In this document: in pieces, positions 5,023-22,645 of the stretch | Position numbering within the stretch: position 1 is the stretch's first letter | Layout of the letters: the number at the start of each line of letters is the position of its first letter | From: Fermentimonas sp. | Lineage (GTDB): Bacteria; Bacteroidota; Bacteroidia; Bacteroidales; Dysgonomonadaceae | Reading direction: 5' to 3' | Assembly: GCA_028709385.1 (NCBI GenBank) | Contig: JAQVXD010000004.1 | Location: 3,157 to 67,156 of the forward strand | Length of the DNA: 64,000 nt | Position numbers and translations under genes: made by a program | Notes under the pieces: generated by a model | What the model saw: the letters and a program-made list of their open reading frames with translations, nothing else | What the model was told of the DNA's origin: nothing | Database searches by the model: none

Positions 5023-6723
5023 ATGAGACAAAGGTACATTTCCGCTATAATGATATTATCCATACTAACAGCTTGTACCACAGAGCTTGACTTAAGCAAT
5101 ATGGATAAAACAATTCAACTGAACAGTGCAATTTCTATGCCTCTAGGCACAACCACGCTAACGGTTGGCGATATCTTCTCGGAAGAGTTTGGCGATCTGT
5201 TTAAAGTGGATAGCACGGAAAACAGTGTCAGCTTATATTGGTCAGATATTTTGGAATATAATGTTGAGAGTGAACTCACTAACTTCGGTCAGGGCATTCA
5301 GATGCAATCATCTTTTGCTGCTGACAGCCGACTGAAAGTGTTCCCCGATGCAGGTACATTGAGAATAAATAAAATGATGGCCGATGCAATAAATTCTGAG
5401 CTGCAAAGCGATGATAATTATATTGTAGAATATGATTATGACTTTAACAGGGAGGAGAATGGCGTTATTAACAGGCAAATCGATTCTGTTTTTGTAAACA
5501 GCCTCAAACTCAATCTTAATATCGACCTAAATAACATTGCAGGTATTTCTGCAAATAACAGCAATATCCGGATGATAGTATCCTTTCCCGGTATCCCCGA
5601 ACTGTCAGAAAAAATTATTACAATAAACTCCAATGCACATTCCGAGAGAATTCTCCTGGAAGATTTCACTCTCGTTTTTAGTGGAGGAGAAACAATAATC
5701 CCAATTTCGATCAAGTTCTCTTTTATTATACCGGAAGGTAAATTTATAACTGTAAATCCAACTTCGGACATCTCCACTACTCTACATATCAACGAAATAG
5801 ACGCGGAAAGAGTTTGGGGGTTTTTTAATACATCCGACGATCTTATCAACAGTAGCTTCGAAATAAATATCCCTGATGAAATTTACAAGAACAAAGAGCT
5901 TCAGAATTTCAAACTATTGTTTCATAACCCCACGGTAACCCTTGATATAGAAAGCAATATAGGAATACCACTTCAAGCTTCAATCGACCAACTCTCTGCC
6001 ACCGACGATAAAGGTAATCAGGTGTACGCCGATTTCAACGGTTCTCGCAACTATCTGATTAATATAGATAAACCTGCCGAAGGCACCACAAGTAGTACCC
6101 GTGCCATAATTAACAGGGAAAACGGAAGTACAAACAAAATTTTCACCATTGTTCCCGAGTTAATATCAGCAGCTATCAGGGTCAATGTGAATCATCAGGA
6201 AGCAATAAAAGATACGTACCACCACCTGTCGTTTCCACTTCAATTCAGTATACCAATTGAATATAAGCTTCCTTTCCAGCTTGATCCCGGTACAACCTAT
6301 GAGTATAACGATACCATAAAAGATGCCGATATATCAAAGATGATGGCTGAGATTGAAGGTGATAACGGCAATCTGGATATAAATGATCTGAAGGTAACAC
6401 TGAAAATTGAAAACAGTATGCCACTGAATGCAGTTGCAAAAGCAATATTCCTCGACCAAAATAACAGTATTGTTCACACAGAATCAGATATCGTAATTCC
6501 TGCACCGGAAACAGATGTTCAGGGGCGTTCGATTAATTCGGCCGAACAAACTATAGTTCTCAGTGCCGGTAATAATATAAAGGAAACCAAACAAATTATA
6601 CTAAACTTCAGCATTGAAGCCGGATCAGATACTGGCAGCATAAGCTATTTCAGATATAATGATTATATGAACATAGCTGTAGGATTGTATCTCAAAGGTT
6701 CACTTCAAACAGAATTTAATTAA
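5023..6723 (+). CDS. Hypothetical surface lipoprotein
   Basis: I do not recognise a named family. The 566-residue product has a lipoprotein signal with lipobox LTAC (Cys18) followed by acidic and polar residues, so it is expected to be lipidated and exported. The rest is rich in beta-type alternation, with repeated patterns such as strings ending in SFPG or IIPIS that suggest tandem beta-sandwich domains. There is no catalytic motif that I can see. The DUF5723 gene follows about 100 bases later on the same strand, and this lipoprotein/outer-membrane-protein pairing suggests that the two act together at the cell surface. Start chosen at the ATG giving the lipobox at the usual distance. Confidence 0.7.
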   Translation: MRQRYISAIMILSILTACTTELDLSNMDKTIQLNSAISMPLGTTTLTVGDIFSEEFGDLFKVDSTENSVSLYWSDILEYNVESELTNFGQGIQMQSSFAADSRLKVFPDAGTLRINKMMADAINSELQSDDNYIVEYDYDFNREENGVINRQIDSVFVNSLKLNLNIDLNNIAGISANNSNIRMIVSFPGIPELSEKIITINSNAHSERILLEDFTLVFSGGETIIPISIKFSFIIPEGKFITVNPTSDISTTLHINEIDAERVWGFFNTSDDLINSSFEINIPDEIYKNKELQNFKLLFHNPTVTLDIESNIGIPLQASIDQLSATDDKGNQVYADFNGSRNYLINIDKPAEGTTSSTRAIINRENGSTNKIFTIVPELISAAIRVNVNHQEAIKDTYHHLSFPLQFSIPIEYKLPFQLDPGTTYEYNDTIKDADISKMMAEIEGDNGNLDINDLKVTLKIENSMPLNAVAKAIFLDQNNSIVHTESDIVIPAPETDVQGRSINSAEQTIVLSAGNNIKETKQIILNFSIEAGSDTGSISYFRYNDYMNIAVGLYLKGSLQTEFN

Positions 6724-6792
6724 TATCATCGTATGAAACGAGCATGACAATGATTATCACACAAATACATGGTTAAAGCGAGTTCCATGAGA

Positions 6793-6800
6793 TACATTTG
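6793..6800 (+). promoter_or_regulatory. -7 element upstream of the DUF5723 gene
   Basis: TACATTTG is an exact TAnnTTTG match 21 bases before the ATG at 6822. A start near 6807 would leave a very short leader. The -33 region (around 6770) has no TTTG, so this is a candidate only; read-through from the lipoprotein gene is also possible. Confidence 0.4.
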
Positions 6801-6821
6801 AAAATAAATAATTTTAATCGC

Positions 6822-8234
6822 ATGAAAAAAATATACTTTCTGTTTTTCCTGCTCTTTATATCAACAACTACAGTTACACAACTATACTCACAAAACGGAA
6901 CACTTTATTTTATTGAAGGACTTCCCGCGAGGAGCAGGCTCAATCCGGCATTCATGCCTGACTCCAAATGGTTTCTCGAAGTACCCGTAATATCAGGCAT
7001 TCATGCCGAAGCAGGGGGTAACGCATTTTCTGTTAGCGATTTTCTCTTTAACTACAACGGAAAGACTGTTACAGCGCTTCATCCATCACAGGATGCTGAT
7101 AAATTTTACAATAAGGTGCGAAAAGTGAATTCTTTAGACACAGATATGGGAATTAATCTCCTCTCGATTGGTATAGCGGGTGACAACTACGACTACTTCT
7201 CTCTCAGTGCTGAACTAAGGGCGACAGGCAGAGCTAATATACCGCGTGACCTCTTCAAACTTGCACTATATGGCACACCAGTCGAATCAGGTAACAACAT
7301 TTTCAACCTTACAAAAACAGGCGTGGAGTCGGCCATTTTTTCTGAACTCGTTTTTGGATATTCCCGTGAGCTTAATGAAGAATTTACTGTAGGCGGAAAA
7401 CTTAAATACCTCAAGGGTTATGCATCAGCACATTCACGCAACAAAAACTTGCAGCTAAGTGCGTCTCAGGATGAATGGCTGATGGAAGGTGATGCTGAAA
7501 TTTATGGATCCATCCCTTTAGATTATCAAACAAAAGAAAACGGGAATATCGACTTCAACTCATTCTCCGGCTGGGACAACAAAAAGTATCAGAAATTGTT
7601 ACGAAGTCCTGCAGGTAACGGTTTAGCCATCGATTTGGGAGTCGTATGGAAACCCGTTGGACCCCTGACTGTTTCGGCGTCGCTTACCGATCTGGGCTTT
7701 ATTCGCTGGAAAAACAACCTGCTTATGGGATCTCTTCACGGTATTCATAGTTTCACAGGGATTGATTATCATAAAGGTGATTCCATTAACTGGGAAAGAC
7801 TGGGTAACGAGATTGAAGATGCTTTCGAATTCAGTTCTTCAGAGGGTGAGCCTTACTCGCAAAGGTTGACCGCCAATATGCATATAGGTGCCGAGTATGA
7901 GATAAATAAACAGTTGAGTCTAGGTGCCCTGTCACGTACAATGATGCACACTTCACACGTTTCACAGGAAATGACTCTGGCAGCCAATTATTACCCCATC
8001 CACTGGTTCGATGCGCATTTAACTTACTCCTTTATGAATGGTGGAGGGAACACTCTCGGTCTGGGAGCAAGATTCCGCTTCGGCCCTGTACAGGCTTACT
8101 TTTTGACCGACTACATACCTTTTAGCTACGCAAAATTAATCTATGATAACGGGCAGACAACCACCGTTCCTTTTAAAAACAAGCGAGTTAATTTTCAATT
8201 CGGAACAGTGCTTACTTTTGGAGAAAGAAAATAG
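6822..8234 (+). CDS. DUF5723 family outer-membrane protein
   Basis: The 470-residue product starts MKKIYFLFFLL, a signal peptide ending near LYSQ; a TTG eight codons upstream was rejected in favour of this ATG. The opening of the mature chain (LYFIEGLPARSRLNPAFMP) and the beta-rich remainder with many aromatic-ending strands are typical of DUF5723, a Bacteroidota family that looks like a PorV/FadL-type outer-membrane barrel. The last strand ends FGTVLTFGERK. The molecular role of the family is not established. It follows the 5023 lipoprotein gene and ends 330-400 bases before the large operon. Family assignment is by motif memory and should be checked with a profile. Confidence 0.75.
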   Translation: MKKIYFLFFLLFISTTTVTQLYSQNGTLYFIEGLPARSRLNPAFMPDSKWFLEVPVISGIHAEAGGNAFSVSDFLFNYNGKTVTALHPSQDADKFYNKVRKVNSLDTDMGINLLSIGIAGDNYDYFSLSAELRATGRANIPRDLFKLALYGTPVESGNNIFNLTKTGVESAIFSELVFGYSRELNEEFTVGGKLKYLKGYASAHSRNKNLQLSASQDEWLMEGDAEIYGSIPLDYQTKENGNIDFNSFSGWDNKKYQKLLRSPAGNGLAIDLGVVWKPVGPLTVSASLTDLGFIRWKNNLLMGSLHGIHSFTGIDYHKGDSINWERLGNEIEDAFEFSSSEGEPYSQRLTANMHIGAEYEINKQLSLGALSRTMMHTSHVSQEMTLAANYYPIHWFDAHLTYSFMNGGGNTLGLGARFRFGPVQAYFLTDYIPFSYAKLIYDNGQTTTVPFKNKRVNFQFGTVLTFGERK

Positions 8235-8642
8235 TTTGTGGTTATTTATAAATAGTTTAATGTCCTTATTTTATCATTTTTTAAATCAATTAAAATAATT
8301 TTTTGGCTTAAAATGCCGTTCACACAAAATCAATAAAAATAATTTTATATTTTTTTCGAATTAATGCAAACAAATTGATACAATTACACGTTAATTAATT
8401 TGAAACAGTAAGTTAATTAGCGCGTATTCTATTTTAACTTATTTTGTTGTTGATTTGCGACAATTGCAATTTATGAACATATTACTTTTTAATAGTTAAG
8501 GTGTAATATTTCTGAATAATCAGGAAATTCTGAATAATTAAGGTGAAATACTGCTGAAGTATTTATGTCATTTCAATATTACTTACAATTAAGTGAGAAT
8601 AATTTCGGGAGCCAGTTTATTAACTTAATAATAACCAAACAC
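8235..8642 (+). other. AT-rich leader region before the seven-gene operon
   Basis: About 400 bases without a convincing gene. The stretch is very AT-rich, with long A and T runs between 8270 and 8400. Near-matches to the -7 element occur (TTATTTTG and TTGATTTG around 8440-8457, TATTTCTG at 8507-8514), each with one mismatch, so the operon promoter cannot be fixed. The 3' part holds nested direct repeats listed separately. An in-frame ATG at 8565 could extend the first gene by 26 codons. Confidence 0.5.
8496..8562 (+). repeat. Nested direct repeats in the operon leader
   Basis: Two 25-base copies, 8496-8520 and 8538-8562, both begin TTAAGGTG and share CTGAA near their ends; 20 of 25 positions agree, with an offset of 42. 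Inside and between them TTCTGAATAAT occurs twice exactly (8510-8520 and 8528-8538), offset 18. Direct repeats of this size before a long operon are a plausible operator, but no regulator is linked to them here. Confidence 0.6.
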
Positions 8643-11456
8643 ATGTCATTAAAACGAAGATTAAACGTTAGTGATTTTAGAATACGTCCTGAAATCACCA
8701 GAATTAATGAAATTAAGGACCCTATTGAGGTAAAGGAAGTTAAACCAACAATAACCACTATCAATCCGGCAATAACCACTATCAATGAAATCCAACCACA
8801 CAGAGTGGTAATTAATGCAAAACCGGGTCTTAATAAAGCAGATTTCAGATTAAAGAAAAGAGATCTGGCAACAAATCGGATAGATTTAATCAGGCAAAGA
8901 GTAGAACTTAATTTCCCTATTTTTGATCTGTTCAAAGGCACCCCTGCTTCACAGTTAAACGTTCCATATACCAATAATCAGCAGCCCTCAGACACCGAAA
9001 TATTCTCTATAAATGATCCTGCAAATGGAAAATCTTTTCTACCCCGATACAAAATAAAAAGTCAGAAAGTATCAGACAAACAGCAATTGATGATTAAACT
9101 TAATGAAGCTGCAGAGGGAGAAGGAGGCACATTAAATATACAATTGCAATCTGTAGTTCCACCCGAAATTGCAGCAACTGTAGCAGGTATGAAACCTGTA
9201 AAACCAAACATTTCATTCGAAATAAGATATACTTTGCCCAACACAGGATTTAAAATAGTAGAACCATTCACAGAAATTATAGAAACTGAAGATGGCTATA
9301 GCATCTCAGCACACATAAACAGTATCTTAAAATACAATCAACTCATTGCTGCAATGTTAGATAGTATTTATGGCTGTCAATTAGTAGTTAAAAGAGAATT
9401 AAGTTTTGGAATACCTTTTCAAAATGTGCCTGCTAATAATAATCTCAATATAAACCCACAACTTTATTTTACAGGAAAAGAGACATCCAATATCAACGGA
9501 AATATATTTACACGGATAAACTTATCAGTAAAAAACTGGAAATCATTCTCAAACGACCTGTTCATTGCTGCACCATCTCTCCCTCCATGTGGTTTAAATT
9601 CTAATGCTTCAAGGACATGGGTAGACATATTTGATAATAAAGGGAAACGACTCTATGGTTACTGTGCATTTAATTCAAATGAGAATCTTAAGAGCTTTTC
9701 TTTTGCAGTAGCTGCGAACCAAAACTTGCCGGTAAATGTATACATAACTTTAACAGACAGGGCTCAAAATAAAGTTTACACATCAAACATTATAAATATT
9801 CAAAGTACCCCAACACCAATAATAGAAAGCATAACCGAGCAATTATTTACCATTACAACTAAGGAATTTACCCAGGAAGAACTATTTCATTTACCCGAAT
9901 TATTATATCCTTATATCTATAGAAATACCACTCGTACTACAGTAGATGTGGGTGGATTTGTCCAACACAATATTGTATTTAAAAGATCAGAACACATTTA
10001 CCTACAAGACGAACTGAACCCTACCAGCTTTTATTTCCTTCCAGACAGTTTTGTATTAGGTAGAGGAACATATCCGCCATTTTACCCTAGTCTAAAGGTA
10101 AAACTTGATGGCGAAACAGTGGAAGATCTCAGAGCATCCATAAATTACGAAGCTGTGGCTTATACTGATGCCGAAAGAATATTTGATGCATTTGATGAAT
10201 TACAGAAAAAAACAGGTTTAAATAAAGATGACATAAATTTTTCTCCATTATCTATCTCAGGAGATAAACTGAATTATAAACTATCAGCTCCGGGAGAAAT
10301 TGGATTTAAAGAGAGAAAGGATAGTCTGGTTTCATTAAACAGGATAATAGATACGCTGCCACCAATCAGTTTACCTGTTTTTGAGGACCTGTTCGACAAT
10401 CTCACATCACCCGCAGCAACAGCTATGCTACAGGGGCATGTAGAGGTCACAATATTAGGAAGAGCTCAGCCTGCAATAATACCGGTAAATCTGAAACTCA
10501 CAGAAGTTTACAGCGAGATTTTATTAATTGAACAGAGCAAAGTGCCAATCATTTATATCGGTATAGAAAATAACAGCGGGAACACATTACAGGCACAGGG
10601 ACTGGCAGCTGAATTACAGGATGGGGAAAATATTCTCTCATGTTCAAAAGCAAACCTTAAGTTGCCATTAACATTAAATCCTGGAGAAAAAACTGAGTTT
10701 ATACTTATTCCAAAAGGACCTGTTCAGAACCCCGACAGTGTTAAAGTCATTCTAAACTGGGAAGGTATGCAGGGTACGGGTACATTTCATATGCAGAGTC
10801 AGCTTTATGGCACTGCAGATTTTGTACAAGCCACAAATGGATTAGAGAGTACACTGCAAATGGATAACGTGAAGGGAATATTGTCCTTGCCGGAAAGAGA
10901 TGTCCCTCTGAATATCAAAAAAATTAATGCACCCAATTCAATAGCGTCAGGAGAAAAGTATTCATTTCTAGCTTTTCTTTCCGAAGAAGTAGCAACATAT
11001 GATCCGCTGGATTTTATTTTTCAGTGGGAGGGACTAAAAATAATACCAGATAAAAGCAAACTCTTTGATATTATTGTCGCCACCTCCGTTGGAGCAAACT
11101 ATGCATTAACTGTGAAAATCAGTCTGTTCATAAAGTTTAAAACAGATACAACATCAATAAGGCTGATGAAAGTGGAGTTTAAAAACCGACAAGATGGTCC
11201 GCTTATAAACACAATAATGTTTACCGAAACAGATAAATCAAATGAAGTTTTAGGTATTATAGAAAAAGAGGCTGTTTTAATGATGCCGGTTAAAGATTAC
11301 GTATTGGGAGATCCAAATGCCGGGCAATATTTTTATCGTATAACCCTGATAAAAGAGACAGATACACTTGGCAATACAGAAATCACAGAGGGCGAGTGGA
11401 AAGCTAAATCAGGCTCGCTTGAAATTACAACAAATCAACTGCCCGGCTCTGTTTAA
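8643..11456 (+). CDS. Large unrecognised protein, first gene of the caspase-associated operon (P1)
   Basis: I do not recognise the family. The 937-residue product starts MSLKRRLNVSDF, a basic segment without signal peptide or membrane helix, then has in-frame repeats of ITTIN. A short piece reads FLPRYKI (about residue 138), and about residues 459-626 contain the two blocks shared with the other large proteins of the operon: FYFLPDS near 464 and AMLQGHVEVTIL near 592. A central piece (TWVDIFDNKGKRLYGYCAF, about 325-343) looks like a beta-sandwich. An ATG at 8565 would add 26 residues; I prefer 8643 because MSLKRR begins a convincing basic N-terminus, but it is not certain. Codon use looks more AT-rich than in the later genes of the array. 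P2 starts 28 bases after the stop. Confidence 0.75.
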   Translation: MSLKRRLNVSDFRIRPEITRINEIKDPIEVKEVKPTITTINPAITTINEIQPHRVVINAKPGLNKADFRLKKRDLATNRIDLIRQRVELNFPIFDLFKGTPASQLNVPYTNNQQPSDTEIFSINDPANGKSFLPRYKIKSQKVSDKQQLMIKLNEAAEGEGGTLNIQLQSVVPPEIAATVAGMKPVKPNISFEIRYTLPNTGFKIVEPFTEIIETEDGYSISAHINSILKYNQLIAAMLDSIYGCQLVVKRELSFGIPFQNVPANNNLNINPQLYFTGKETSNINGNIFTRINLSVKNWKSFSNDLFIAAPSLPPCGLNSNASRTWVDIFDNKGKRLYGYCAFNSNENLKSFSFAVAANQNLPVNVYITLTDRAQNKVYTSNIINIQSTPTPIIESITEQLFTITTKEFTQEELFHLPELLYPYIYRNTTRTTVDVGGFVQHNIVFKRSEHIYLQDELNPTSFYFLPDSFVLGRGTYPPFYPSLKVKLDGETVEDLRASINYEAVAYTDAERIFDAFDELQKKTGLNKDDINFSPLSISGDKLNYKLSAPGEIGFKERKDSLVSLNRIIDTLPPISLPVFEDLFDNLTSPAATAMLQGHVEVTILGRAQPAIIPVNLKLTEVYSEILLIEQSKVPIIYIGIENNSGNTLQAQGLAAELQDGENILSCSKANLKLPLTLNPGEKTEFILIPKGPVQNPDSVKVILNWEGMQGTGTFHMQSQLYGTADFVQATNGLESTLQMDNVKGILSLPERDVPLNIKKINAPNSIASGEKYSFLAFLSEEVATYDPLDFIFQWEGLKIIPDKSKLFDIIVATSVGANYALTVKISLFIKFKTDTTSIRLMKVEFKNRQDGPLINTIMFTETDKSNEVLGIIEKEAVLMMPVKDYVLGDPNAGQYFYRITLIKETDTLGNTEITEGEWKAKSGSLEITTNQLPGSV

Positions 11457-11484
11457 TAATTACAACACAATTTAATAATTAAGT

Positions 11485-13860
11485 ATGCAATTATTAGATT
11501 TCACATATAAGATTGAAGAAGAATCCTTTGTAGCATGTAAGGGATATGAGGGTAAAGATATTTACCTGCTGTCTAAAAATCTTCAGCTGTCAGCTTCCAA
11601 TTCCGGGAAACCGGCATTCTTACTTGAGTTTGTAAGAGGAATCACCCCTTTCAGCAAACCACCGCCATACGCCCTTATGGAAATGCAGATTGAGCCACCG
11701 GATCTGAATGAATCATTATTATCAGAAATATCTGAAAAATGGCCTTCCCATCATATACAGTATGCTGATATAGATTCGGGTTATTTAACACTTACATTGC
11801 AAAAGAAAGATGTCGGTGGTGATGAAGGCAATTCAGATAAGGAAATGAACACCCCAATACCACTGAGTAAAATGTCGCTTTCACGCCTCAGAATTGTAGA
11901 GCAATTCAACGAAGAATATATGAATTTATTTCACTCAGTGCTTCAGAGCGGGATTCTCTTAATGAGTGCCAAAGGGTGGTATTGTGTAAGCGGATATGCA
12001 CCGTTGATTGAATTAACCCTAAAATTCAATCCTGCTGAATTAACAGGCTTTGTCAAAAGCTTCATTTCAAATGAAGAAGGCTGCATCAGTAAGGATAATT
12101 TATTACTGCTTTTCAGAGATAAAATAAATATACTGCCAATCCATATCTCAGAAAAAGAAAAAGAAAAAGTTAAAGCAGCAGAACCATTTGCTCTGAGTCT
12201 CGCAGCCAGATATCTTAACTATTTTTGTGAACCCCAGCCTTTACTTAACAGCACCAACGATATCAACTTCAAATTCAACGAACTGGCAACAAAAGAGGGA
12301 GAATTCACCTGGGATCTGCTCAAACCTCAGGTTGTAAAATATTACACATCCTACACCCTTCAGGGTTTGGATAAAATGCTCATGATGATCAAAGAGGGCA
12401 GTTTTCCCGAATATACACAAACACGAATTGTAGAATCGCTGCCAACAGGCTTCACTACCGTTTCAGTATATCATCCATTCTTTATGTTACCTGTCGGCAT
12501 AAGGCAGGCAGGAATAAAAATAAGTGCGCCACCGGTAGAAAATCAGAGACTGCAGGCAATAAATGAAACAATAACTTTTGATACCGGCACTGCAAAAAAA
12601 ACAGTAGTTCTGAGATTTTCCCCTAATGAAAAGTGTGAGTTTGAAGTACTTCCATTTGTAATAACAGAAGAAAATGGTGTCACAAATGAGTTACATGGCG
12701 AAAGCTTCACAAGTGATAAAAAAATACTATACATACAGGCAGATCAGTTTCCACTGCATATTGCCTCATTCAAATGTACAGAAGCATTAATGGAAGCAGC
12801 AGATATAAAATTAGAAATAACCGGAGATGATGAAGAAAAGGAGCCACTCCCCTCCACATCATTTTCAAAGGAACAACAGGATGTCATGTATGCTTTCTCA
12901 AACAAAAACATGAAAAATTGGAAAGCAAAGGTTACTGCCACTGAAATTGGGGATGGTAGTGATAATGAAGTTGGCAGAAAAACAATTACAAAAACACTCA
13001 ACCTTAACAATGATCAGAAAATAGATCTCACCTCGTTTGACAGCTTTGGGTCACATTCAGTAAATATCAAATTGCAAGACAAAAACAATGGAATAATAGC
13101 AATAGACCTTTTACCCGAAAACCGTGAAGAGTCGCATGAAAATATTACCACGATAGCTTTGTCACAAAACAAACCTGAACAAACCTGGCAATGGTACAGC
13201 GATTCATTGTTCAAGTCAGGGTTCAGATACCGACTTACCCTGTCAGATAACAAATGGAGCGAAGTAATATCACACAATATAAATGAATTAATAATTCACC
13301 CTAACAACCAAAACATGAAAACAGAAAATGTTTTTAAGGAAATTGCATACTTCCCCAACACTAAAGAGGAGGGACAATACCTCTATTACCCAACTACCGT
13401 AAACGCACAAAAAGATGGCAACGGAAGTCCCATGATTTCACTAATCGGGGCGGGCGAAAACTGGTTTCTGCTAGTCTCATCTGTATGGCAGGCCGGTTCA
13501 GAGAATCTTGATGAGCTTGCCAGTAAGCTTGTTAAAGATGAAAAGATAATCAATGTTTATGAATTAAAATTAGCGCCTATAGAAGTAGAAAAAGCAGAAC
13601 TTATCCTGATAACTCAACAAGAAGAAAAGGTATTATCCACATCAGCCACATCAGGGTACTATCCATTCTCGGCTGTGTTCAATGTTACTGTAAATAATGA
13701 ACAGCAAAAACTCATAGCGCCTGCATTCACAGGGCAGGCAGGCACTTTAATAGTCAGGTACACCGGTTTGTTAAACTACTCCGAACCAATTGTTGCGAAA
13801 GGGGATGTGTCTGACTGGCTTACAGATAAAGGAACAGAAAACATCAGAATAATTAAATAA
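11485..13860 (+). CDS. Large unrecognised protein, operon member P2
   Basis: No known family recognised. 791 residues, no signal peptide and no membrane helix, so probably cytoplasmic. The N-terminal part (about residues 25-105, with GKPAFLLEFVRG and YALMEMQIEP) lines up with block A of P3-P5. Residues around 148-190 (LFHSVLQSGILLMSAKGWY) line up with block B. Near the C-terminus (about 630-690: YLYYPTTVN, GSPMISLIGAG, WFLLVSSVW) a second block-A-like copy appears. The middle is beta-rich with an acidic stretch at about 447-453 (DDEEKEP). P3 begins 31 bases after the stop. The alignments are by eye only. Confidence 0.75.
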   Translation: MQLLDFTYKIEEESFVACKGYEGKDIYLLSKNLQLSASNSGKPAFLLEFVRGITPFSKPPPYALMEMQIEPPDLNESLLSEISEKWPSHHIQYADIDSGYLTLTLQKKDVGGDEGNSDKEMNTPIPLSKMSLSRLRIVEQFNEEYMNLFHSVLQSGILLMSAKGWYCVSGYAPLIELTLKFNPAELTGFVKSFISNEEGCISKDNLLLLFRDKINILPIHISEKEKEKVKAAEPFALSLAARYLNYFCEPQPLLNSTNDINFKFNELATKEGEFTWDLLKPQVVKYYTSYTLQGLDKMLMMIKEGSFPEYTQTRIVESLPTGFTTVSVYHPFFMLPVGIRQAGIKISAPPVENQRLQAINETITFDTGTAKKTVVLRFSPNEKCEFEVLPFVITEENGVTNELHGESFTSDKKILYIQADQFPLHIASFKCTEALMEAADIKLEITGDDEEKEPLPSTSFSKEQQDVMYAFSNKNMKNWKAKVTATEIGDGSDNEVGRKTITKTLNLNNDQKIDLTSFDSFGSHSVNIKLQDKNNGIIAIDLLPENREESHENITTIALSQNKPEQTWQWYSDSLFKSGFRYRLTLSDNKWSEVISHNINELIIHPNNQNMKTENVFKEIAYFPNTKEEGQYLYYPTTVNAQKDGNGSPMISLIGAGENWFLLVSSVWQAGSENLDELASKLVKDEKIINVYELKLAPIEVEKAELILITQQEEKVLSTSATSGYYPFSAVFNVTVNNEQQKLIAPAFTGQAGTLIVRYTGLLNYSEPIVAKGDVSDWLTDKGTENIRIIK

Positions 13861-13891
13861 TAGAAAAACAATCTTTTAAAATCTCATTATT

Positions 13892-16099
13892 ATGCTTTAC
13901 ATAAACAATCAGAGAATCATCGAGAATATTGTTGTTTATGGCGACGACCGCCAGTTCAACATGTTTTATCCCATCCCGGAGAAGCCTACATTTATGGTGG
14001 ATGAAAAAGGTCACCCCGTTTTCAAATTTATAAAATATCGTTTTCCTGTCGACCGTGCCGACGGAAAAAAGGGTGGTGGTTTTGTAGTATTTGCTACAGA
14101 ATTTACAATTCAGGATGATAAGATGGCAATAATAAAAAGTAAACTTCAGGAGGAGGTAAATGCCACAGCCCAGCGGTTAAATATATCTCCTGTGCCCGAA
14201 GCAAAAATTGGCACGGTCAGGTATAACAGAGGAACATCGAAGCTACTCTTCGAAAAAAATGATTTTATAGAGAGGATGTTCGATGCAGGTAAACCATCAC
14301 TGTATGGCAAAAATGTATCAACATTCAGTCTCGAATTATCTGTTGAAGGTGCTTCACTTTTTGAGTCTGCACTACAGGGTAAAGGTGGTTTTGTAAGTGT
14401 AGTATATGAATTATATCACGATGCCAAACTACCTCCCATAACTGTTGTGGGCACATTTCATGCAGAATCGTTTTATTCTTATGTTCAAGATATTAATGTA
14501 GAAGAACGCTGGTGTGCGGAGGACGATTACAAAGAGACATTAAAAGAGATAATGACCAAGTCGGAGAGTAAACGCCTCACCATAGATCCCGGCAGCGCTC
14601 AGATTGATCCAAAAGTAATGGATCAGCTACGTACATGGGCACAGGGTACACTTGATGATGCGGCAGAGCGGCTGATGATTGAAGCTTTAGATGTAGAAGA
14701 TCCCGAAGCAGCAAGAAAATGGTATCAGGAGGAAGATATCGAAAACGTTCGTAAAGAGGTCACAAAAAACCGTATATCAGATTTCACACTAAGATATACC
14801 GAAGAATCATACATCGAGGTAAACATAAATCCCAACGGTCCGCTGCCAAACATAACAACACTCATAGATAAAGAAGGAAATTCAATTCTGTGGACAGATT
14901 ATGCGCAGGAAGTAGATCTTAACGATAAGTTCTTCAAACAGATAAATGCAAACGTACAGGTAAACGCTCCTTTTGATGAACTGCCTATTCATAGCGTAGA
15001 AGTTAAACTTATGTATAAAGGCAAACCTATGGATGTAATAGGGAGTGAAATAAACGGTGAATATCAGTTTACCAAAACAGATGATGTAGCCCGTTTTGCA
15101 ACATATGTTGAAGAAGACGATTTTAATTACAATTACAGTTACCAGGTAAATTATAAAGGAGCTGCCAGAATATTTCAATCTGAAGAGTTTACAACTAACG
15201 AATCTGTGCTCACGGTAAACGTAGATGATGTCGGCATTCTGTTTGTACAGATTACCCCTGGTGATATAGATTTCAAGCAGATAAATCAGGCACAGGTATT
15301 AATGGAATATGAAGACAGCTCCAAAGGAGTTGATAAAATTTCCGACCAGTTTATTCTTACAGAGAGTACGCCCGAACACACTTTCAAACATATTATTTTC
15401 AGTAAAAGAGATAAACCCTACAAGTATAAAATAAATTACAAGCTAACCGATGGTAAAGAGTTTGAAGGCGAATGGCAGGAGGGAAACTCAAATCGTCTGT
15501 TTATTAACGACCCGTTCACACAGAGTAAAACAGTCGGTTTCAGAGCTTCAGGTGATCTCGAAAACGATATCTTCAACATATTTATCGATGCTCTGTATAA
15601 AGATAAAGACAATAACTACCAGGTGAGCAAATCCATCTCACTCTCCAAAGACAATCCTTTCTACGACTGGTACATACCATTGATAAACAAGGATGTAAAC
15701 AGCATAACCTATAAAGGAACAGTTTTAAGAAAAAACGGAACTCAGGAAGAGATAGCCGAGGTCAGCACAGACTCATCAACCATTATTGTGGGAGAAAACG
15801 TTGAGAATCTTTTAGAAATCACTTTAATGGCTGATCTGCTCAACTTCGATACTATTCTTAAGCTGGCACATGTTCAGCTTCAGTATTCCGATCCTGATAA
15901 GGGTGTGGATGAACGTAAAGACTTCACCTTCAAGGCAGGTGCTGTAGTTCCCGCAACCTGGCTGATTAAGGTAAAGGATAAAACCAAAAAACTATACAAT
16001 TATAAGGTTACCTATTATCTGCAGGATGGCAGCAAGAAAGAAGCCTCAAAAGAGGGAGTATCAGATCTCACTCTGTTTTTAGAACTACCTGTAAATTAA
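13892..16099 (+). CDS. Large unrecognised protein, operon member P3
   Basis: 735 residues without signal peptide or membrane helix. Block A (about 15-75) contains YGDDRQFNMFYPIPEKP, FKFIKYRFPVD and GGGFVVFATEF. PSLYG follows at 135-139, then block B (143-200) with TFSLELSVEGASLF and GFVSVVYELYHD. From about residue 350 to the end there are roughly four beta-sandwich-like repeats of 90-100 residues, each with patterns like YKYKINYKLTDGKEF or YNYKVTYYLQDGSKK towards its end. No catalytic motif is visible, so a structural, binding or substrate role is more likely than an enzyme; that is inference. P4 starts 7 bases after the stop, which suggests co-translation. Confidence 0.78.
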   Translation: MLYINNQRIIENIVVYGDDRQFNMFYPIPEKPTFMVDEKGHPVFKFIKYRFPVDRADGKKGGGFVVFATEFTIQDDKMAIIKSKLQEEVNATAQRLNISPVPEAKIGTVRYNRGTSKLLFEKNDFIERMFDAGKPSLYGKNVSTFSLELSVEGASLFESALQGKGGFVSVVYELYHDAKLPPITVVGTFHAESFYSYVQDINVEERWCAEDDYKETLKEIMTKSESKRLTIDPGSAQIDPKVMDQLRTWAQGTLDDAAERLMIEALDVEDPEAARKWYQEEDIENVRKEVTKNRISDFTLRYTEESYIEVNINPNGPLPNITTLIDKEGNSILWTDYAQEVDLNDKFFKQINANVQVNAPFDELPIHSVEVKLMYKGKPMDVIGSEINGEYQFTKTDDVARFATYVEEDDFNYNYSYQVNYKGAARIFQSEEFTTNESVLTVNVDDVGILFVQITPGDIDFKQINQAQVLMEYEDSSKGVDKISDQFILTESTPEHTFKHIIFSKRDKPYKYKINYKLTDGKEFEGEWQEGNSNRLFINDPFTQSKTVGFRASGDLENDIFNIFIDALYKDKDNNYQVSKSISLSKDNPFYDWYIPLINKDVNSITYKGTVLRKNGTQEEIAEVSTDSSTIIVGENVENLLEITLMADLLNFDTILKLAHVQLQYSDPDKGVDERKDFTFKAGAVVPATWLIKVKDKTKKLYNYKVTYYLQDGSKKEASKEGVSDLTLFLELPVN

Positions 16100-16106
16100 G
16101 ATCATT

Positions 16107-18389
16107 ATGTTATACTTAGCACCACCTTTTCACATAATAGATGGCATCAGTATATTCAGGGATCATGAAGATGAACTTCAGTATTACTTTATGCCGTTGT
16201 ACCCTCATCTCACCACAGTAAAAGACGCTGTCACTGGTGCAGACGTTCCGCAAATACAGCTCATAAAATACAGGGGAGAAGCGGGCAATGGAGGTTTCCT
16301 CAATTTCGATGTAAACCTTGGTATTATGGAAGATAAGCTGCAAGAACTCACAGCTTCCATTAAATCTCTTGAAAATCTTGACCAAACACCACGACTCGCA
16401 CCTGTACCGCTGGTAGATGGCACGGTTAAACTAATGATTCTGAACAAGCAATCCCCCGAACCTGCCAATGATACAGATCCTGTTCCTGCCAATGATAAAC
16501 CGGAGGGACCGCAATTTGTAATCAGCATGCAGCACCATGCCAAACCTGCGCTCTATGGCACAAATCAGGCAGCATTTTCGGTACAGCTCGATGAAGCAGG
16601 CGTGGTAGTGGTAGAACAAGCAATCCAGGGCGAGATGGCACCTATTGGTGTAGTTTATTCGTTAGATTATATGTGTCTGAGAGATGGATATAAAGTATCG
16701 GTAAATGCCGATTGGGAGAGAGTTCAGAAACACTTCGACGAGTCTTTTTCTGTAAATACCCCGATATTCAGTTCAACCGTTGATACCATTGTCGATGAGC
16801 TCATAGAGACCAGGGTAATAGACATGCAAATTGATAAACTGTTTGTTACTGACGACACCACTTCTGAACTGGAAGCACGAATGAACGAAGCTGTCAATCA
16901 GATAAAAGACATGGTGCTCGACAACTTTTTCGAACCATCATTAGAACCAATAGAAAACAAGGAAGACAATACCATACGCGATATCGGAAGAGTTGCTCTG
17001 ATACTGGCCTCGGGAGGTGCTTCTGAAAGCACCACGTTTAGTTACAAAAAAACTGATATCACCCGTATCGATAAGAAAAAGCTGAATGTAAACTTTTCAG
17101 AGCGCACAGCAGTAATAAGGAGCATTTATCCGCAGGGACACCTTGGGGGCCTGTTTACCGTGCTGCGTGAGCCGGGTATCGAACTATCCCGTTTCGTAAT
17201 GCCTGTAGAGCTCGATAACCCATGGTTTAAGAAGCGTAAGGTAAATGTAATTGCGAGAACCGATTTTGATTCAGATAACATAGAATCTCTCAATGTAACA
17301 TTAACTTACAATGGTGCATCTAAAAATGTGCTGCTTGATAAAAACAAGACTACCGAACAGGTTCATTGGTTAAGCAAAATAGTAGATGATAAAATGGTTC
17401 CCGAAGTTTCCTGCAGCTATATCGTTAATTTCAAAAAGGGAGATGGACTGGAGCGCCCGTCGAAAGTCGTCTCTCCACCCGAAATCATCACAGTTGAGAA
17501 TTACGAAGTGCGGCCAAGAGAAATCTATGGAAATACACCAATTGCCATTTTAGCGCTCAATTTCCCGTGGGATGTTTACAGTCACGTCGAAATAGCAATA
17601 AAGTACACCGATGAGGAAAACGAAATAAGAACCGATGATAATATTTTGCTGAATAAGGATAAAACGGAGGCAACCTGGCAATTGTTCTCACTCAATCCAA
17701 CAAAAAACGTATTCTCCTATCAGTTAATATATCGGGGAGTAGATCATCGCGATCTTATCATGCCCTGGCAGGAATCAGAGGCTGAAAACATAATTATCCG
17801 CGATCCGTTTCCCGATAAACGCCGCATCAGCTTTGTGCCGGCAGTGAGCTGGGCAGAGGTTAAGAATATCTTTGCTGATGTAGTATATACCGATAAGGAG
17901 AATGGGGTCAGAGAAAGTAACAGTGTCAGTTTTAGTGAAACCGACAACAATCCAAAGGATGTCATTATACAACAATTCAAAAACCCCGAAGCACGCATTG
18001 TCTCATTTAAAATAACGTTTATCTATGCCGATGGCAGGGTAATTGAGACACCAACCTGTCAGACTTTATCTGATCGTATATTCATCACCACCGCCATAAA
18101 AGGGCACAAGATATTATTGATAGATCCTTCAGGTATTGCTTTTAAAGACAACAAAATCAAAGAGGCTAAGCTGCAAATACGTTATGAAGACGAAGAAGCA
18201 AAACTATCATTCAACGACAATTTTTCTTTTAAGTCAGAAAATGATCAACCAAGATACTTTGAGTACGACTTTGTAGATCCCGACAATGCGGCTGTCCTTT
18301 ACCGTTTAGAGCTCCATTACGAAAATGGAATGAAAAAGACGGGCAACTGGTTAAATTCAAAAGATGATTTACTCAAATTAACTGTTTGA
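16107..18389 (+). CDS. Large unrecognised protein, operon member P4
   Basis: 760 residues, a paralogue of P3 and P5 by eye, with no signal peptide. Block A: ISIFRDHEDELQYYFMPLYP, QLIKYRGEAGNGGFLNFDV and LAPVPLVDGTVKL (residues 15-110). Block B: PALYG (147-151), AAFSVQLDEAGVVVVE and APIGVVYSLDY (155-188), then ADWERVQKHF (201-210). The block FSYKKTDITRID near 310 corresponds to FTLRYTEES of P3. The C-terminal half again holds about four beta-sandwich-like repeats. Between blocks A and B there is an insert rich in Asn/Asp/Pro (about 116-134) that P3 lacks. Ends 21 bases before P5. Confidence 0.78.
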   Translation: MLYLAPPFHIIDGISIFRDHEDELQYYFMPLYPHLTTVKDAVTGADVPQIQLIKYRGEAGNGGFLNFDVNLGIMEDKLQELTASIKSLENLDQTPRLAPVPLVDGTVKLMILNKQSPEPANDTDPVPANDKPEGPQFVISMQHHAKPALYGTNQAAFSVQLDEAGVVVVEQAIQGEMAPIGVVYSLDYMCLRDGYKVSVNADWERVQKHFDESFSVNTPIFSSTVDTIVDELIETRVIDMQIDKLFVTDDTTSELEARMNEAVNQIKDMVLDNFFEPSLEPIENKEDNTIRDIGRVALILASGGASESTTFSYKKTDITRIDKKKLNVNFSERTAVIRSIYPQGHLGGLFTVLREPGIELSRFVMPVELDNPWFKKRKVNVIARTDFDSDNIESLNVTLTYNGASKNVLLDKNKTTEQVHWLSKIVDDKMVPEVSCSYIVNFKKGDGLERPSKVVSPPEIITVENYEVRPREIYGNTPIAILALNFPWDVYSHVEIAIKYTDEENEIRTDDNILLNKDKTEATWQLFSLNPTKNVFSYQLIYRGVDHRDLIMPWQESEAENIIIRDPFPDKRRISFVPAVSWAEVKNIFADVVYTDKENGVRESNSVSFSETDNNPKDVIIQQFKNPEARIVSFKITFIYADGRVIETPTCQTLSDRIFITTAIKGHKILLIDPSGIAFKDNKIKEAKLQIRYEDEEAKLSFNDNFSFKSENDQPRYFEYDFVDPDNAAVLYRLELHYENGMKKTGNWLNSKDDLLKLTV

Positions 18390-18410
18390 AAAAACATAAT
18401 AATTAAAACT

Positions 18411-20660
18411 ATGTTAGAAATCGGAAGTAAAACAATTACAATAGACGGGGTAACAGTTTTCAGTGACCATGCAGATCCCGATCAATTCTGGTATTTGCCC
18501 GGTCCCGTGCAGATGGCACGGCGTAAACCCGATAACAGGGCTGCTTTTACTTTTATCAAGTATGGCAATGTTGATGGAAATGCAATAAAAGGCCGGGGTT
18601 TTTTAATGGTGGAGGTAAATCTGAAACTGGATGCCAACATCGAAAGAAAAATTATATCTCGTATCTCTTCAATGGCAAAAGGTACACCAAAACTGGCAGC
18701 AGTACCTTTTGACGATGGCACTGTGGAATGTATTGCACTCGACCTGCAGGGTGGAGGTGGTACCGTCGCCCAAGTGGCTGCCGACGGGAGTTTCAGGGCT
18801 GTAGAAAACATCCTGGGTGGTGCCGTTCCCTCTCTTCATGGCGATAATAGCGCAGCTTTCAGTTTATCTCTAACAGGAGAGGGTGCTACCATAATCGAAG
18901 ATGTTTTTAAAAAGAAAGGTACACCCGTTGGTGCAGTTTATCATCTAAAGTATTCAGGACTCACCCCTGCCCTTGAGGTTGAAATAAAAGCCAATCTTAA
19001 AAGAGTATATGACCATTTCAGTGCAGGTCTCGAGGCTCAGGTCTATTTTGTGAGAGCAGGCATAGATGCCGGTTTCGAGAAGCTGGTTCAGGATGGAGTA
19101 ATCGAAATAAAGGTGATTAATTTCTCCACTGCAGACGACAAGAACTCAAAGGAGGAGTGGGCTCTCAATTTCTTCAAGGAAAATCTTTTAACAGAATGGT
19201 TCCGCCCAACCCTGACACCTGGACAACTTGCTGGTGGTATTGCTCAGGCTGAAAATCTCGATGCAGTTCAGAAACGTGCTCAGGCAATGAAACCGAAGCC
19301 TACACCTGAACCGCCTGTCCCTGCAAGAACTGTAGCTCCCGCATCGGGAGGTACACCAGCAGCCGAGGGAACGCCTGCTTCTGGCGGGACTCCTACTCCA
19401 GCAACTCCCCGCGCTCCTCGTCCTGATGCAGGTACCGGCACTCCCGAAACAACAAGTGTAGTGCCTAATCCGCCTGTACAGACAGGCAACGCAGCTACTC
19501 ATGCCGAAACGGCCACAGCAATGCCCCCTGCAGCACCTGCCCCACCGGCTGTTCCCGATGTCTCGGCACCCAGATTGCCAAACCCTGCAAATATGGCGCC
19601 CGACACTGCATTAGTCTCTTTTAAATTGAAAATGATAAAACAGATAGAAGAAAAAACTCTTACTTTTAAATTTACCCGTGCAGAAGCTGTTCAACGGACT
19701 TATTCTCCTCAGGGATTCTTTGGTCTCTTTGCTGAGGATCTTAACAAGGAGGGCCACTTTTTCCAGGTAGATGGTGATGATCCATTTTTCAGAGAGTTCA
19801 GGGTGTCAGTGGAGAGTCCTTTCGATAAGGAGAAGATCGACCTTGCCTCTGCTCATGTCCAGATGAATTATGGTAAACCGGGTACTGACAAAAAGCATAA
19901 GGATTTTATTATCGACAAGGATTCTCCAGCTAAGCTTGAATGGCTGGTGAAAACCATCCCCGGTGTTAACACTTATGGTTACACCGTGCAGTATCATTTT
20001 AAACCTGATTCTGAGTGGAAGAGCGAAAAGAGCAGTTATGAGTTTCCCGAAAAGGTTACTGAAGACCGTACACTGCTGGTTCATCCATTCGATAATCTGG
20101 TGTTTCTGGATGTTAATATTTCTGCTTCAAATATCGACTGGACACAGGTTGCCGAGGTTTCGGCCCAATTAACCTATAAAGCTGAAAACGGGTGGACTCA
20201 GCAGGATACCTTTTTCTTTACAGCGGCCAATCCTGGCGATCAGCAGTGGAAAATCCGTTCTTCGGATATTAATAACAAGTCCTACAGCTATTCTGTATTC
20301 TATAAAATGATTAATGGCAATACCTATAATGTAGAAGTTCCTAAAACGGGGATAACACAAATAGCTATAGTTAACCCGTTAAAGGCTATATCAATAGAGT
20401 TTATTCCTCTCTACACGCCTAATGTTTTCAAAACTATTTTTATCGATATAAATTATACCGATGAAGAAAACAACCTGAAAATAAAAGACAGACTAAAGCT
20501 CGATGGCAATTCTACTGATTCTGTAAAATATCTTTTGCATGTAATTGATGACACAAAAGGCAGTTACACATATCAGACTACGTTCGTGGGAGCAGACAAC
20601 TCGTTAAAACGAAATGAACCCATAGAAACTCAGGAGACTTTAATAGCATTAAGTAACTAA
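18411..20660 (+). CDS. Large unrecognised protein with Pro/Ala/Thr-rich linker, operon member P5
   Basis: 749 residues, no signal peptide. Block A: VTVFSDHADPDQFWYLPGPV, FTFIKYG and GRGFLMVEVNLKL; then AAVPFDDGTVECIALDLQG. Block B: PSLHG (140-144), AAFSLSLTGEGATII and TPVGAVYHLKYSGL, ending KRVYDHF. Residues about 293-398 form a long disordered linker of Pro, Ala, Thr and Gly that the paralogues lack; its DNA is clearly GC-richer than the rest. After it come LTFKFTRAEAVQRTYSPQG (matching P4's segment) and three or so beta-sandwich repeats. A flexible linker of this kind is a natural place for proteolytic cutting, which is interesting given the two protease genes that follow after 15 and 12 bases; this is inference. 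Confidence 0.8.
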   Translation: MLEIGSKTITIDGVTVFSDHADPDQFWYLPGPVQMARRKPDNRAAFTFIKYGNVDGNAIKGRGFLMVEVNLKLDANIERKIISRISSMAKGTPKLAAVPFDDGTVECIALDLQGGGGTVAQVAADGSFRAVENILGGAVPSLHGDNSAAFSLSLTGEGATIIEDVFKKKGTPVGAVYHLKYSGLTPALEVEIKANLKRVYDHFSAGLEAQVYFVRAGIDAGFEKLVQDGVIEIKVINFSTADDKNSKEEWALNFFKENLLTEWFRPTLTPGQLAGGIAQAENLDAVQKRAQAMKPKPTPEPPVPARTVAPASGGTPAAEGTPASGGTPTPATPRAPRPDAGTGTPETTSVVPNPPVQTGNAATHAETATAMPPAAPAPPAVPDVSAPRLPNPANMAPDTALVSFKLKMIKQIEEKTLTFKFTRAEAVQRTYSPQGFFGLFAEDLNKEGHFFQVDGDDPFFREFRVSVESPFDKEKIDLASAHVQMNYGKPGTDKKHKDFIIDKDSPAKLEWLVKTIPGVNTYGYTVQYHFKPDSEWKSEKSSYEFPEKVTEDRTLLVHPFDNLVFLDVNISASNIDWTQVAEVSAQLTYKAENGWTQQDTFFFTAANPGDQQWKIRSSDINNKSYSYSVFYKMINGNTYNVEVPKTGITQIAIVNPLKAISIEFIPLYTPNVFKTIFIDINYTDEENNLKIKDRLKLDGNSTDSVKYLLHVIDDTKGSYTYQTTFVGADNSLKRNEPIETQETLIALSN

Positions 20661-20675
20661 ATAAAATAGAATATT

Positions 20676-21581
20676 ATGTCAAAATATGCACTGGTAGTAG
20701 GAATAGATGATTATTCGGTACAAGGAAGCAGTTCATTATCTTTTTGCGTGGCCGATGCAAACAGTATTTATCAGATGTTGCTTGCGGCTATGGGGTTTCA
20801 GGCTGAAAATATAATACTGCTGACTAACGCTCAGGCTACCCGCAGAAACATCCTGAGTTCACTTGCATATCTGCTCTCAAATGCAACCGTAGGAGACACT
20901 GTTCTCTTTACCTATGCGGGACACGGAAGTATTTTCCCTGCAACAACTGCACCTGATAATACAAGGTTTTATCAGTCGATAATTCCATATTCAGGTGACT
21001 GGATTTATGACTTCAGGCTCTATGAGATGGCAACAGAAGCCGGGTTTAACCCCAACGAGGTAAACTTCACCTGCTTTATGGATTGCTGTCACAGCGGCGG
21101 ACTGCACCCTACTGTAAATTCAGAACAGTCCATCCCACGCAGTGTTCCCTTCAGGGCCGACGTGGCAGAAAGCATCAGAAATATTCAGGAGCTATGGCCT
21201 TTTGGCATCTGTCTGCCCGATGATGTAAATGAACTTTTCCCAAATGTAAGCAATCCACGGTTAGATAATAATGTACTTATTGATCTGGATGAAGATGAAA
21301 ATAAAAATTTTGTAGCATCAGCGCAATCCACTCTCATAGCTGCCTGTAAATATTATGAATTAGCAGGAGAAAGTATTGTGGCCGGTCACGGATATCTTAC
21401 AAAAGCACTGCTGGATACTGTAAACAGCTCTAACTTCAGAATCTCCTACACCAGCCTCATCGATGAATTGGTGCATAGAGTGGGACAATTATCAAACAAT
21501 GAGCAGCACCCCACATTACGTGGCCAGCTTGCAAGAATGAGTGGCATTTTTCTCGAGGGTTTTAATACATCGGTAATATAA
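20676..21581 (+). CDS. Caspase-family (peptidase C14) cysteine protease, copy 1
   Basis: 301 residues that are essentially a bare caspase-fold domain: first strand KYALVVGIDDY, catalytic His83 in YAGHGS and catalytic Cys138 in MDCCHSGG. There is no signal peptide, prodomain or fused sensor. The later part (TLIAACKYYELAGES, GHGYLTKALLDTVN) corresponds to the small-subunit half of the fold. Bacterial C14 enzymes (orthocaspases) usually cleave after Arg or Lys; the specificity of this one is not readable. It starts 15 bases after P5 and is followed 12 bases later by a second copy, so the substrates may be products of the same operon. Intact dyad suggests an active enzyme. Confidence 0.9.
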   Translation: MSKYALVVGIDDYSVQGSSSLSFCVADANSIYQMLLAAMGFQAENIILLTNAQATRRNILSSLAYLLSNATVGDTVLFTYAGHGSIFPATTAPDNTRFYQSIIPYSGDWIYDFRLYEMATEAGFNPNEVNFTCFMDCCHSGGLHPTVNSEQSIPRSVPFRADVAESIRNIQELWPFGICLPDDVNELFPNVSNPRLDNNVLIDLDEDENKNFVASAQSTLIAACKYYELAGESIVAGHGYLTKALLDTVNSSNFRISYTSLIDELVHRVGQLSNNEQHPTLRGQLARMSGIFLEGFNTSVI

Positions 21582-21593
21582 AAAATAAATATT

Positions 21594-22523
21594 ATGGCTA
21601 AAAGAGCATTAACAGTAGGTATAAATAAATATACAATTTTAGACCCATCGGGTGAAAGCAACCTCAGTGCATGTGTTGATGATGCACGCAGCATTTATCA
21701 TCTGCTTAAGAACAGCTTTGGCTTCGAAGAGATATATCATATCGAAGATTATGCGGCAAGCAGAGACACAATTCTCACCGCCCTGAGATATCTGGTAAGA
21801 GTAAGTGAAGCAGGTGATACCATTGCCTTTTATTTCTCCGGTCACGGGGCACGTTTACGGGCCGATTTATCGGCAGGCGATTGTGATACTTACTACGAAG
21901 CACTGGTGCCGGCGTCGGGAGCATGGATTACTGACCGTGATCTGAATTCAATCACAGACACGTTGTATCCCGATGCCGTAAACTTTACCGTAATCACCGA
22001 TGCCTGTCACTCCGGCGGAATTCACATAGCTGATGCAGCATTAAAATGCCGTACTCCCATATATGCAGCAGAATTATTATCAACAATTGTGCAGTTCATG
22101 AATACGCTCATCCCTTGCGGAGTTTGTTTGCAAGTAGCAAGCGAGATCGAAAACAATGTTCGCAATGTCACTGAAAACGAAGGACATATTGATCTTGATC
22201 CGGATCCTAATAAAACTTTAATCGCATCCACTAAATCAACTTTAATTAGTGCCTGCCATTTTAACGAATTATCCTGGGAGACCAGTTCAATTGGTCATGG
22301 TCTGTTTACTCAGGCAATATTAGATACTGTAAATCAGAGTAATTTCAGCATGAGTTATCATGATTTTATTACTACTTTGCAAACAAATGTTGCTGAAAAA
22401 GTACGTAGATTTATTAATCCTAGCAAACCTTCTGTAACTCAAACACCGCAGTTGTTTGGGCAGAGAAATCGCATGGAAGAATCGTTATTGACCGGCTGGA
22501 ATTATACTCCTGCCAATCCTTGA
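21594..22523 (+). CDS. Caspase-family (peptidase C14) cysteine protease, copy 2
   Basis: 309 residues, a paralogue of the preceding gene: RALTVGINKY strand, catalytic His84 in YFSGHGA and Cys138 in TDACHSGG. Both copies keep the same order of motifs, including a nearly identical stretch ending in LDTVN.SNF and SY near residue 250, so they come from a tandem duplication that has since diverged widely. The second copy is closer to the usual C14 consensus (DACHSGG rather than DCCHSGG). No signal peptide. It is the last gene of the array; a 15-bp hairpin follows the stop by about 75 bases. Two proteases might act on different substrates or as a heterodimer, which cannot be told from sequence. Confidence 0.9.
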   Translation: MAKRALTVGINKYTILDPSGESNLSACVDDARSIYHLLKNSFGFEEIYHIEDYAASRDTILTALRYLVRVSEAGDTIAFYFSGHGARLRADLSAGDCDTYYEALVPASGAWITDRDLNSITDTLYPDAVNFTVITDACHSGGIHIADAALKCRTPIYAAELLSTIVQFMNTLIPCGVCLQVASEIENNVRNVTENEGHIDLDPDPNKTLIASTKSTLISACHFNELSWETSSIGHGLFTQAILDTVNQSNFSMSYHDFITTLQTNVAEKVRRFINPSKPSVTQTPQLFGQRNRMEESLLTGWNYTPANP

Positions 22524-22597: not shown

Positions 22598-22645
22598 ATT
22601 TAAACTAAATCGGGGACCTGCACTCGATTTAGTTTAAATATTTTT
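22598..22645 (+). terminator. Terminator-like hairpin after the caspase operon
   Basis: A perfect 15-bp inverted repeat, arms 22598-22612 and 22625-22639 (ATTTAAACTAAATCG and its complement), encloses a 12-base loop and is followed by ATATTTTT. The stem is AT-rich but long. It fits the end of the seven-gene transcript. Confidence 0.75.

Follow-up and report, generated by a model that had tools for sequence, protein, structure and literature searches.

A rare and sporadic bacterial gene cassette: five related large proteins followed by C14 proteases or a prenyltransferase-like protein

Introduction

The EAD/EACC1 and vWA-MoxR conflict systems have a constant core with interchangeable effectors, caspases among them, and a sporadic spread, according to the portion of Kaur et al. 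(eLife 2020, PMC7159879) that was consulted. The locus described here lies in a stretch of 64,000 nt (the window) of Fermentimonas sp. (assembly GCA_028709385.1, contig JAQVXD010000004.1, forward-strand positions 3,157–67,156). It is a cassette of seven plus-strand open reading frames (ORFs), named g1 to g7 in 5′ to 3′ order; L- and G-numbers denote loci and genomes of relatives, and all other coordinates are those of the window. The first five genes encode large proteins that match no family library convincingly, although the same gene order is met again in several phyla. The last two encode proteases of family C14, and in relatives this 3′ position may instead be occupied by an ABBA-prenyltransferase-like (PT-like) protein, so that C14 or a PT fold on the same scaffold amounts to a natural swap experiment. 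To our knowledge, the substrates and control of bacterial caspases are mostly unknown, and the matching of g5 to its enzyme offers a directly testable partner for one of them.

The five core proteins

The only clear pairwise relations (BLASTP/phmmer) among the five are those between g3 (13892–16099, 735 aa), g4 (16107–18389, 760 aa) and g5 (18411–20660, 749 aa), at ∼21–29% identity. With profiles built from 24–50 sequences each, hhalign connects g2 (11485–13860, 791 aa) as a distant homologue to the g3–5 profile (probability 98, E 1.4e-14, 543 columns). It also connects g1 (8643–11456, 937 aa) to the g2 profile (probability 93, E 3.4e-7) and, over 77 columns, to that of g3–5 (probability 75, E 2.6e-5); the part of g1 that matches the N-domain of the others starts near residue 450. 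At profile level all five proteins appear related, g2 firmly and g1, the weakest member, less surely. A preliminary description of the locus had called them related outright, which is correct pairwise for g3–g5 and by profile for g2, but for g1 applies more weakly and only at profile level. It had also failed to recognize the family, and so do the libraries: Pfam, NCBIfam, PHROGs and PADLOC give no convincing match for g1–g5, the few E-values listed being at least 0.04. The g3–5 profile has no sequence match in PDB, and the best E-value there for the g1 profile is 0.1.

The AlphaFold model of g4 (50 sequences; mean pLDDT 83.1, pTM 0.52) has an alpha/beta N-domain up to about residue 340, followed by Ig-like C-terminal beta domains that match Ig/FN3 folds. 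In the model of g1 (mean pLDDT 80.6), a low-confidence N-terminus of ∼97 aa precedes beta-rich domains. Fold searches with both models return generic Ig/FN3 arrays. In several relatives g2 is present as two genes.

Distribution and gene order

A single scan, with patterns based on the g4 and g5 sequences of two Bacteroidota genomes, found 46 further loci in seven phyla (18 Actinomycetota, 16 Pseudomonadota, 5 Bacillota, 3 Bacteroidota, 2 Cyanobacteriota, 1 Nitrospirota and 1 Myxococcota), a sample that leans towards the kind from which the patterns were drawn and in which one Cohnella genome contributes four loci. The order g1-g2-g3-g4-g5, all on one strand, is kept at 28 of the 46 and a shorter run in that order at 7, while 11 differ, including those of Microbacterium and Sphaerisporangium, L026, L061 and three broken Cohnella loci. 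Gene calls in the relatives are rough for high-GC genomes. The recurrence of the five-gene order makes the array more than a chance arrangement. Contigs of Cohnella faecalis (L032, L065, L066) contain broken and partly mirror-image copies of the cassette, reflecting either assembly error or decay.

The cassette is rare and sporadic across bacteria. Matches occur in 4 of 395 Bacteroidota genomes including that of the window, with full cassettes in two. Counting the central genome in each case, and with some of the matches weak, they occur in 2 of 296 genomes in the phylum of L035, 1 of 194 in that of L063, 3 of 398 in that of L043, and 2 of 146 in that of L026.

Enzymes following g5

The 3′ ends were surveyed at 48 loci (the window, the genome G168 and the 46 others), and are visible at 38 and not at the other ten. 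Nine of the 38 have C14 only, 20 a PT-like protein only, four have both and five neither, giving 13 with C14 and 24 with the PT-like protein. Homologues of the core thus usually occur without the protease (25 of 38, of which 20 have a PT-like protein), an outcome that the preliminary description had named as refuting its proposal, and the protease is not the defining partner of the core array. Among the loci with neither enzyme, L026 (Myxococcaceae) has an M48 peptidase gene downstream, at L026:12698–14878.

The PT-like family is ∼310 aa long and its profile matches the prenyltransferase CymD (E 1.4e-4); single-protein Pfam scans give a weak Trp_DMAT match in 3 of 7 (E 0.055–0.078). Five residues, K158, Y160, R193, Y207 and R209, are invariant in the 14 aligned rows and are candidates for the diphosphate-binding residues.

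The C14 proteases g6 (20676–21581, 301 aa) and g7 (21594–22523, 309 aa) are 39% identical to each other. Both match PF00656 (Peptidase_C14) well above the cut-off of 21.4 bits (E 7.9e-16, 58.9 bits and E 3e-23, 83.2 bits), and contain the GHG and DxC motifs. The dyad, His83/Cys138 in g6 numbering, is kept without exception by the 16 full-length relatives aligned, the two window proteins among them, which bears out their earlier description as caspase-fold enzymes with an intact dyad. In PDB both match metacaspase-4 (E 3.6e-15 and 2.5e-17). In the C14 alignment D27 is at least 90% conserved and D136 invariant; these positions, matched by motif and not by structure, resemble Asp365 and Asp462, respectively, of the MALT1 S1 pocket (PMC4357240, consulted in part), an analogy which suggests that g6 and g7 may prefer Arg/Lys at P1. 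All five Bacteroidota cassettes retrieved (the window, G168, L021, L027 and L060) carry both C14 lineages, each a clade with support 100/100, which makes the pair old and its members probably non-redundant. This C14 subfamily is found, at E ≤ 1e-30, in 2 of 247 Bacteroidota genomes (that of the window and G168), in either case within the cassette alone. Looser C14 relatives, below 60% identity, occur on 65 plasmid records.

Coupling of g5 to its enzyme

The tree of g5 has 33 rows, of which four carry no label; g5 sequences that are split, truncated, broken or nearly duplicate (L030, L032, L049, L054, L056, L058 and L061 among them) were excluded. Across its 29 labelled rows the type of the next gene, C14 or PT-like, switches once, while the minimum in 5,000 label shuffles was four; on the g4 tree, the presence of C14 needs four changes over 31 labelled rows. 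Two genomes, Nitrospira L024 and Pseudomonadota L025, each have one g5-C14 pair plus one g5-PT pair. The two g5 proteins of L024 are not sisters, since a forced grouping is rejected (p-AU 5.4e-6).

The two types of g5 also differ in a P/T/A-rich linker, which in the window protein spans about residues 273–400. The motif [LM][RK]P is found in 11 of 11 C14-type linkers vs 3 of 18 PT-type linkers (shuffled means 0.64 and 3.4), and [PA][TD]xx[TS]G in 11 of 11 vs 6 of 18 (shuffled means 1.4 and 5.9), so that PT-type linkers contain both at chance level. These motifs were picked by eye on the same, mutually related sequences. Cleavage of g5 within its linker by the caspase was considered and is unsupported. 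The Arg plus Lys content of the C14-type linker is 0.034–0.085 in ten of the 11, in all ten below that of the rest of the protein; the exception, L023 (0.171), has a linker that appears damaged, and PT-type linkers range from 0.031 to 0.133. In addition, the Arg/Lys of the conserved motif precedes a proline, for which reason it is not proposed as a cut site, and this speaks against simple cleavage at basic residues there.

Since the next-gene type tracks the g5 tree, and two genomes have matched pairs, g5 appears to be the subunit at which an interchangeable enzyme docks. Linkage accounts for some of this, but the two-pair genomes and the confinement of the C14 subfamily to cassettes favour a g5-C14 partnership as the better account. 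The regulated proteolytic system proposed in the preliminary description retains its linked large proteins, its genuine C14 enzymes and, in g5-C14, what looks like one evolutionary module; it loses the protease as the defining partner.

Probable insertion of the cassette

At L095 the sequence matching 8106–8251 is joined directly to that matching 22719 onward, and the cassette is thereby delimited as a ∼14.5-kb block. At this locus and at L096 and L097, all of the same genus, the left-hand peptidase-like gene adjoins an OPT-transporter gene and the cassette is absent. L096 and L097 also lack the two genes at 5023–8234, so that the missing block is ∼18 kb there; all that L095 retains of this pair is ∼147 bp that match the end of the second gene. 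The two genes lie to the left of the cassette in the window, and one is a DUF5723 gene. Presence or absence at the site alone fits gain as well as loss, but a search of 60 relatives, 36 from the same genus (several of the genomes being incomplete), gave no match to g5, and with the cassette missing from the other sampled members of the genus, gain at the window site is favoured over loss in the relatives. Transfer RNA genes were looked for and none was found. The whole cassette also occurs in G168, which belongs to a different class of the phylum; there g2 is split in two, and g5 is 70% identical. A phage or virus origin was rejected: g5 has no match in phage records, and a pattern scan of IMG/VR found none.

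Organization of the locus

All seven ORFs are free of internal stops and are separated by 28, 31, 7, 21, 15 and 12 bases, in agreement with the tight array first described. Apart from them the block contains only short antisense ORFs (those of at least 100 aa were considered). For g1, an ATG at 8565 would give 963 aa in place of 937; the start at 8643 is favoured because the family profile, aligned to the longer form, starts only at its residue 25. Upstream lies the leader of the inserted block (8245–8642, plus strand), its left junction placed near 8245 by comparison with L095. It is AT-rich as reported, while the repeats once attributed to it come down to one direct pair of 20 nt, A/T-rich and 44 bp apart (8283–8302 and 8327–8346), which may be due to chance. 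The closing hairpin of the earlier account, terminator-like and with a 15-bp stem, is located at 22600–22637 (plus strand), close to where the insertion ends on the right (∼22715). Further away, a minus-strand cluster at 42318–63569 resembles, by eye, genes for polysaccharide synthesis and is seemingly unrelated to the array.

Distant versions of the core

Divergent core-like proteins are encoded in Pararhizobium (L014), Paracoccus (L015), L019, L090 and L092. On the Paracoccus plasmid (L015:5336–10301 and 10431–30843), EAD1-trypsin, EAD1 and AAA/STAND-like genes lie directly upstream of the core proteins on the same strand, and PLD-like, tyrosinase and trypsin genes follow them. A GH46 gene is near the version at L019, and NAL1-type protease and amidase_3 genes are near that at L092. 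At L090 (2148–9957) a core-like protein, a PT-like protein with an adjoining small toroid-looking protein, and a protein of 1197 aa are encoded. The adjacency of these genes weakly suggests a wider exchange of enzymes. Viewed by eye, a 698-aa protein at L015 resembles a toroid fused to a PT-like domain, and proteins of 588 aa (L014:13222–14988) and 536 aa (L092:9442–11052), encoded beside core proteins, look alike and have GAAGTC and GGH motifs that recall papain-like peptidases, with no match in Pfam.

Interpretation

The reading that we favour, tentatively, is of a horizontally transferred cassette with a role in conflict or stress. It starts from the gene content and order, the profile homology of the core, the presence and absence at the insertion site, the co-variation of g5 with its enzyme, and the C14 dyads. 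The block would have been acquired as a self-contained unit. Its five large proteins, sharing an N-domain and Ig-like domains, may form a multi-subunit scaffold or sensor in the cytoplasm, in which g5 would hold an interchangeable effector enzyme by means of a disordered linker. Here the effectors would be the two C14 proteases, probably specific for basic residues; the complex would restrain them until a trigger, infection or stress, led to their release or activation. Going further, to an undescribed class of immune or cell-fate complex in seven phyla, in which a mobile five-subunit Ig-array scaffold has a last subunit in enzyme-matched versions (caspase-type or prenyltransferase-fold), is doubtful.

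Several observations weigh against the favoured reading. The branch joining the 11 C14-type g5 has a support of only 83, and as the genes adjoin, physical linkage may contribute to the single label change. A helix-like stretch immediately ahead of the linker motif occurs in g5 of either type, in 11 of 11 with C14 and in 9 of 18 with a PT-like neighbour. The PT-like alternative is not known as a cell-killing effector. Nor is a consistent defence island apparent in the flanks of the relatives: no PADLOC family is found in more than 3 of 106 neighbour proteins, in a scan with no control set, from which no conclusion is drawn. It covered 106 of 134 selected neighbours; the EAD1-trypsin, EAD1 and AAA/STAND-like genes of Paracoccus are among the other 28, so that this locus is understated. 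The PADLOC matches, in the 25 of 41 families listed, include mad3 (3), PDC-M37B, DolB, mad8 and CARF3 (2 each), and DndA, SspA and E1-E2 (1). In Pfam, AAA_16 is matched in 3 neighbours and CHAT, a domain with a caspase-related peptidase fold, in 3. Also adverse is an insert in the linker of 15 of 18 PT-type g5, whose profile finds OmpA-fold proteins (YfiB, E 0.005, marginal), although Pfam OmpA matches only 1 of the 15 (E 0.2). An OmpA-like fold is usually bound to peptidoglycan outside the cytoplasm.

This insert lends itself to another account, in which the five proteins would be the parts of a structure on or outside the cell surface, with C14 trimming the subunits as it assembles. Adhesins and pilins are indeed among the many proteins that the Ig/FN3-like arrays resemble in fold searches, and a distant Bacteroidota relative (L018) starts with a signal-like hydrophobic stretch, as judged by eye; we nevertheless consider this account unlikely. 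The hydrolase genes near the distant versions (PLD-like and trypsin-like at L015, GH46 at L019, amidase_3 and NAL1-type protease at L092) would fit a delivery or predation apparatus with the 3′ enzymes as payload, as would the six of 46 loci that come from Lysobacter, a genus with predatory members. Those genes are perhaps unrelated, however, library scans of the seven window proteins match no family known for a tube, a sheath, secretion or immunity, and the C14 proteins have by eye no evident export signal, so that such a weapon is distinctly unlikely. It is improbable that the enzymes are no more than passengers beside g5 with their function elsewhere: adjacent genes do share a history by linkage alone, but L024 and L025 keep each g5 type beside its own enzyme, the C14 subfamily is confined to cassettes among the 247 genomes sampled, and the g5 linker motifs are type-specific. 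Least probable is a modification machine, in which the core would hold a peptide or protein for the PT-like protein to prenylate or C14 to cut, as in peptide natural products; the CymD match, the four loci with both enzymes and the Paracoccus tyrosinase gene point that way, but we know of no such pathway with five giant beta proteins, and clustering of 300 predicted neighbours gave no partner gene recurring widely across phyla (besides pieces of g2, the groups are mainly from Lysobacter or from two to four loci, with ABC-transporter-like proteins grouping four).

Comparison with known systems

Among the window proteins PADLOC finds only its generic caspase model, on g6 and g7, and nothing on g1–g5; without a system-specific core protein, assignment to a known defence system was rejected. 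Ig-like domain arrays among the best Foldseek/VIA rows suggest a possible likeness of the core to alpha-2-macroglobulin/complement and to FN3 adhesins. The alternative 3′ protein of relatives is related by profile to ABBA prenyltransferases (CymD, 6os3), at an E of only 1.4e-4; the window itself has no PT-like gene. The proteases share their family, the H/C dyad and the acidic D27 and D136 (DxC) with the orthocaspases, metacaspases and paracaspases (C14B), and differ from these in that the g6/g7 subfamily is confined to the cassette in the genomes sampled. Unlike vWA-MoxR (VMAP/iSTAND) ternary systems, the seven proteins include C14 only and no MoxR or vWA above the Pfam cut-off. Unlike EACC1-caspase, g6 and g7 score 35 and 31.1 bits against the NF047832 cut-off of 140.

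In the literature searched, which was seen in part, no description of such a cassette was found, and we know of no described kind with five array proteins plus an exchangeable C14 or PT-fold enzyme. Any novelty of the cassette concerns this composition and not a function. Its C14 and core are separate proteins, unlike those of EAD/EACC1 systems, but it resembles these and the vWA-MoxR systems, as far as the consulted text of PMC7159879 describes them, in having a constant core, an exchangeable effector and a sporadic spread, and as in EAD/EACC1 systems one distant relative of the core, that of Paracoccus, adjoins EAD1 and AAA/STAND-like genes.

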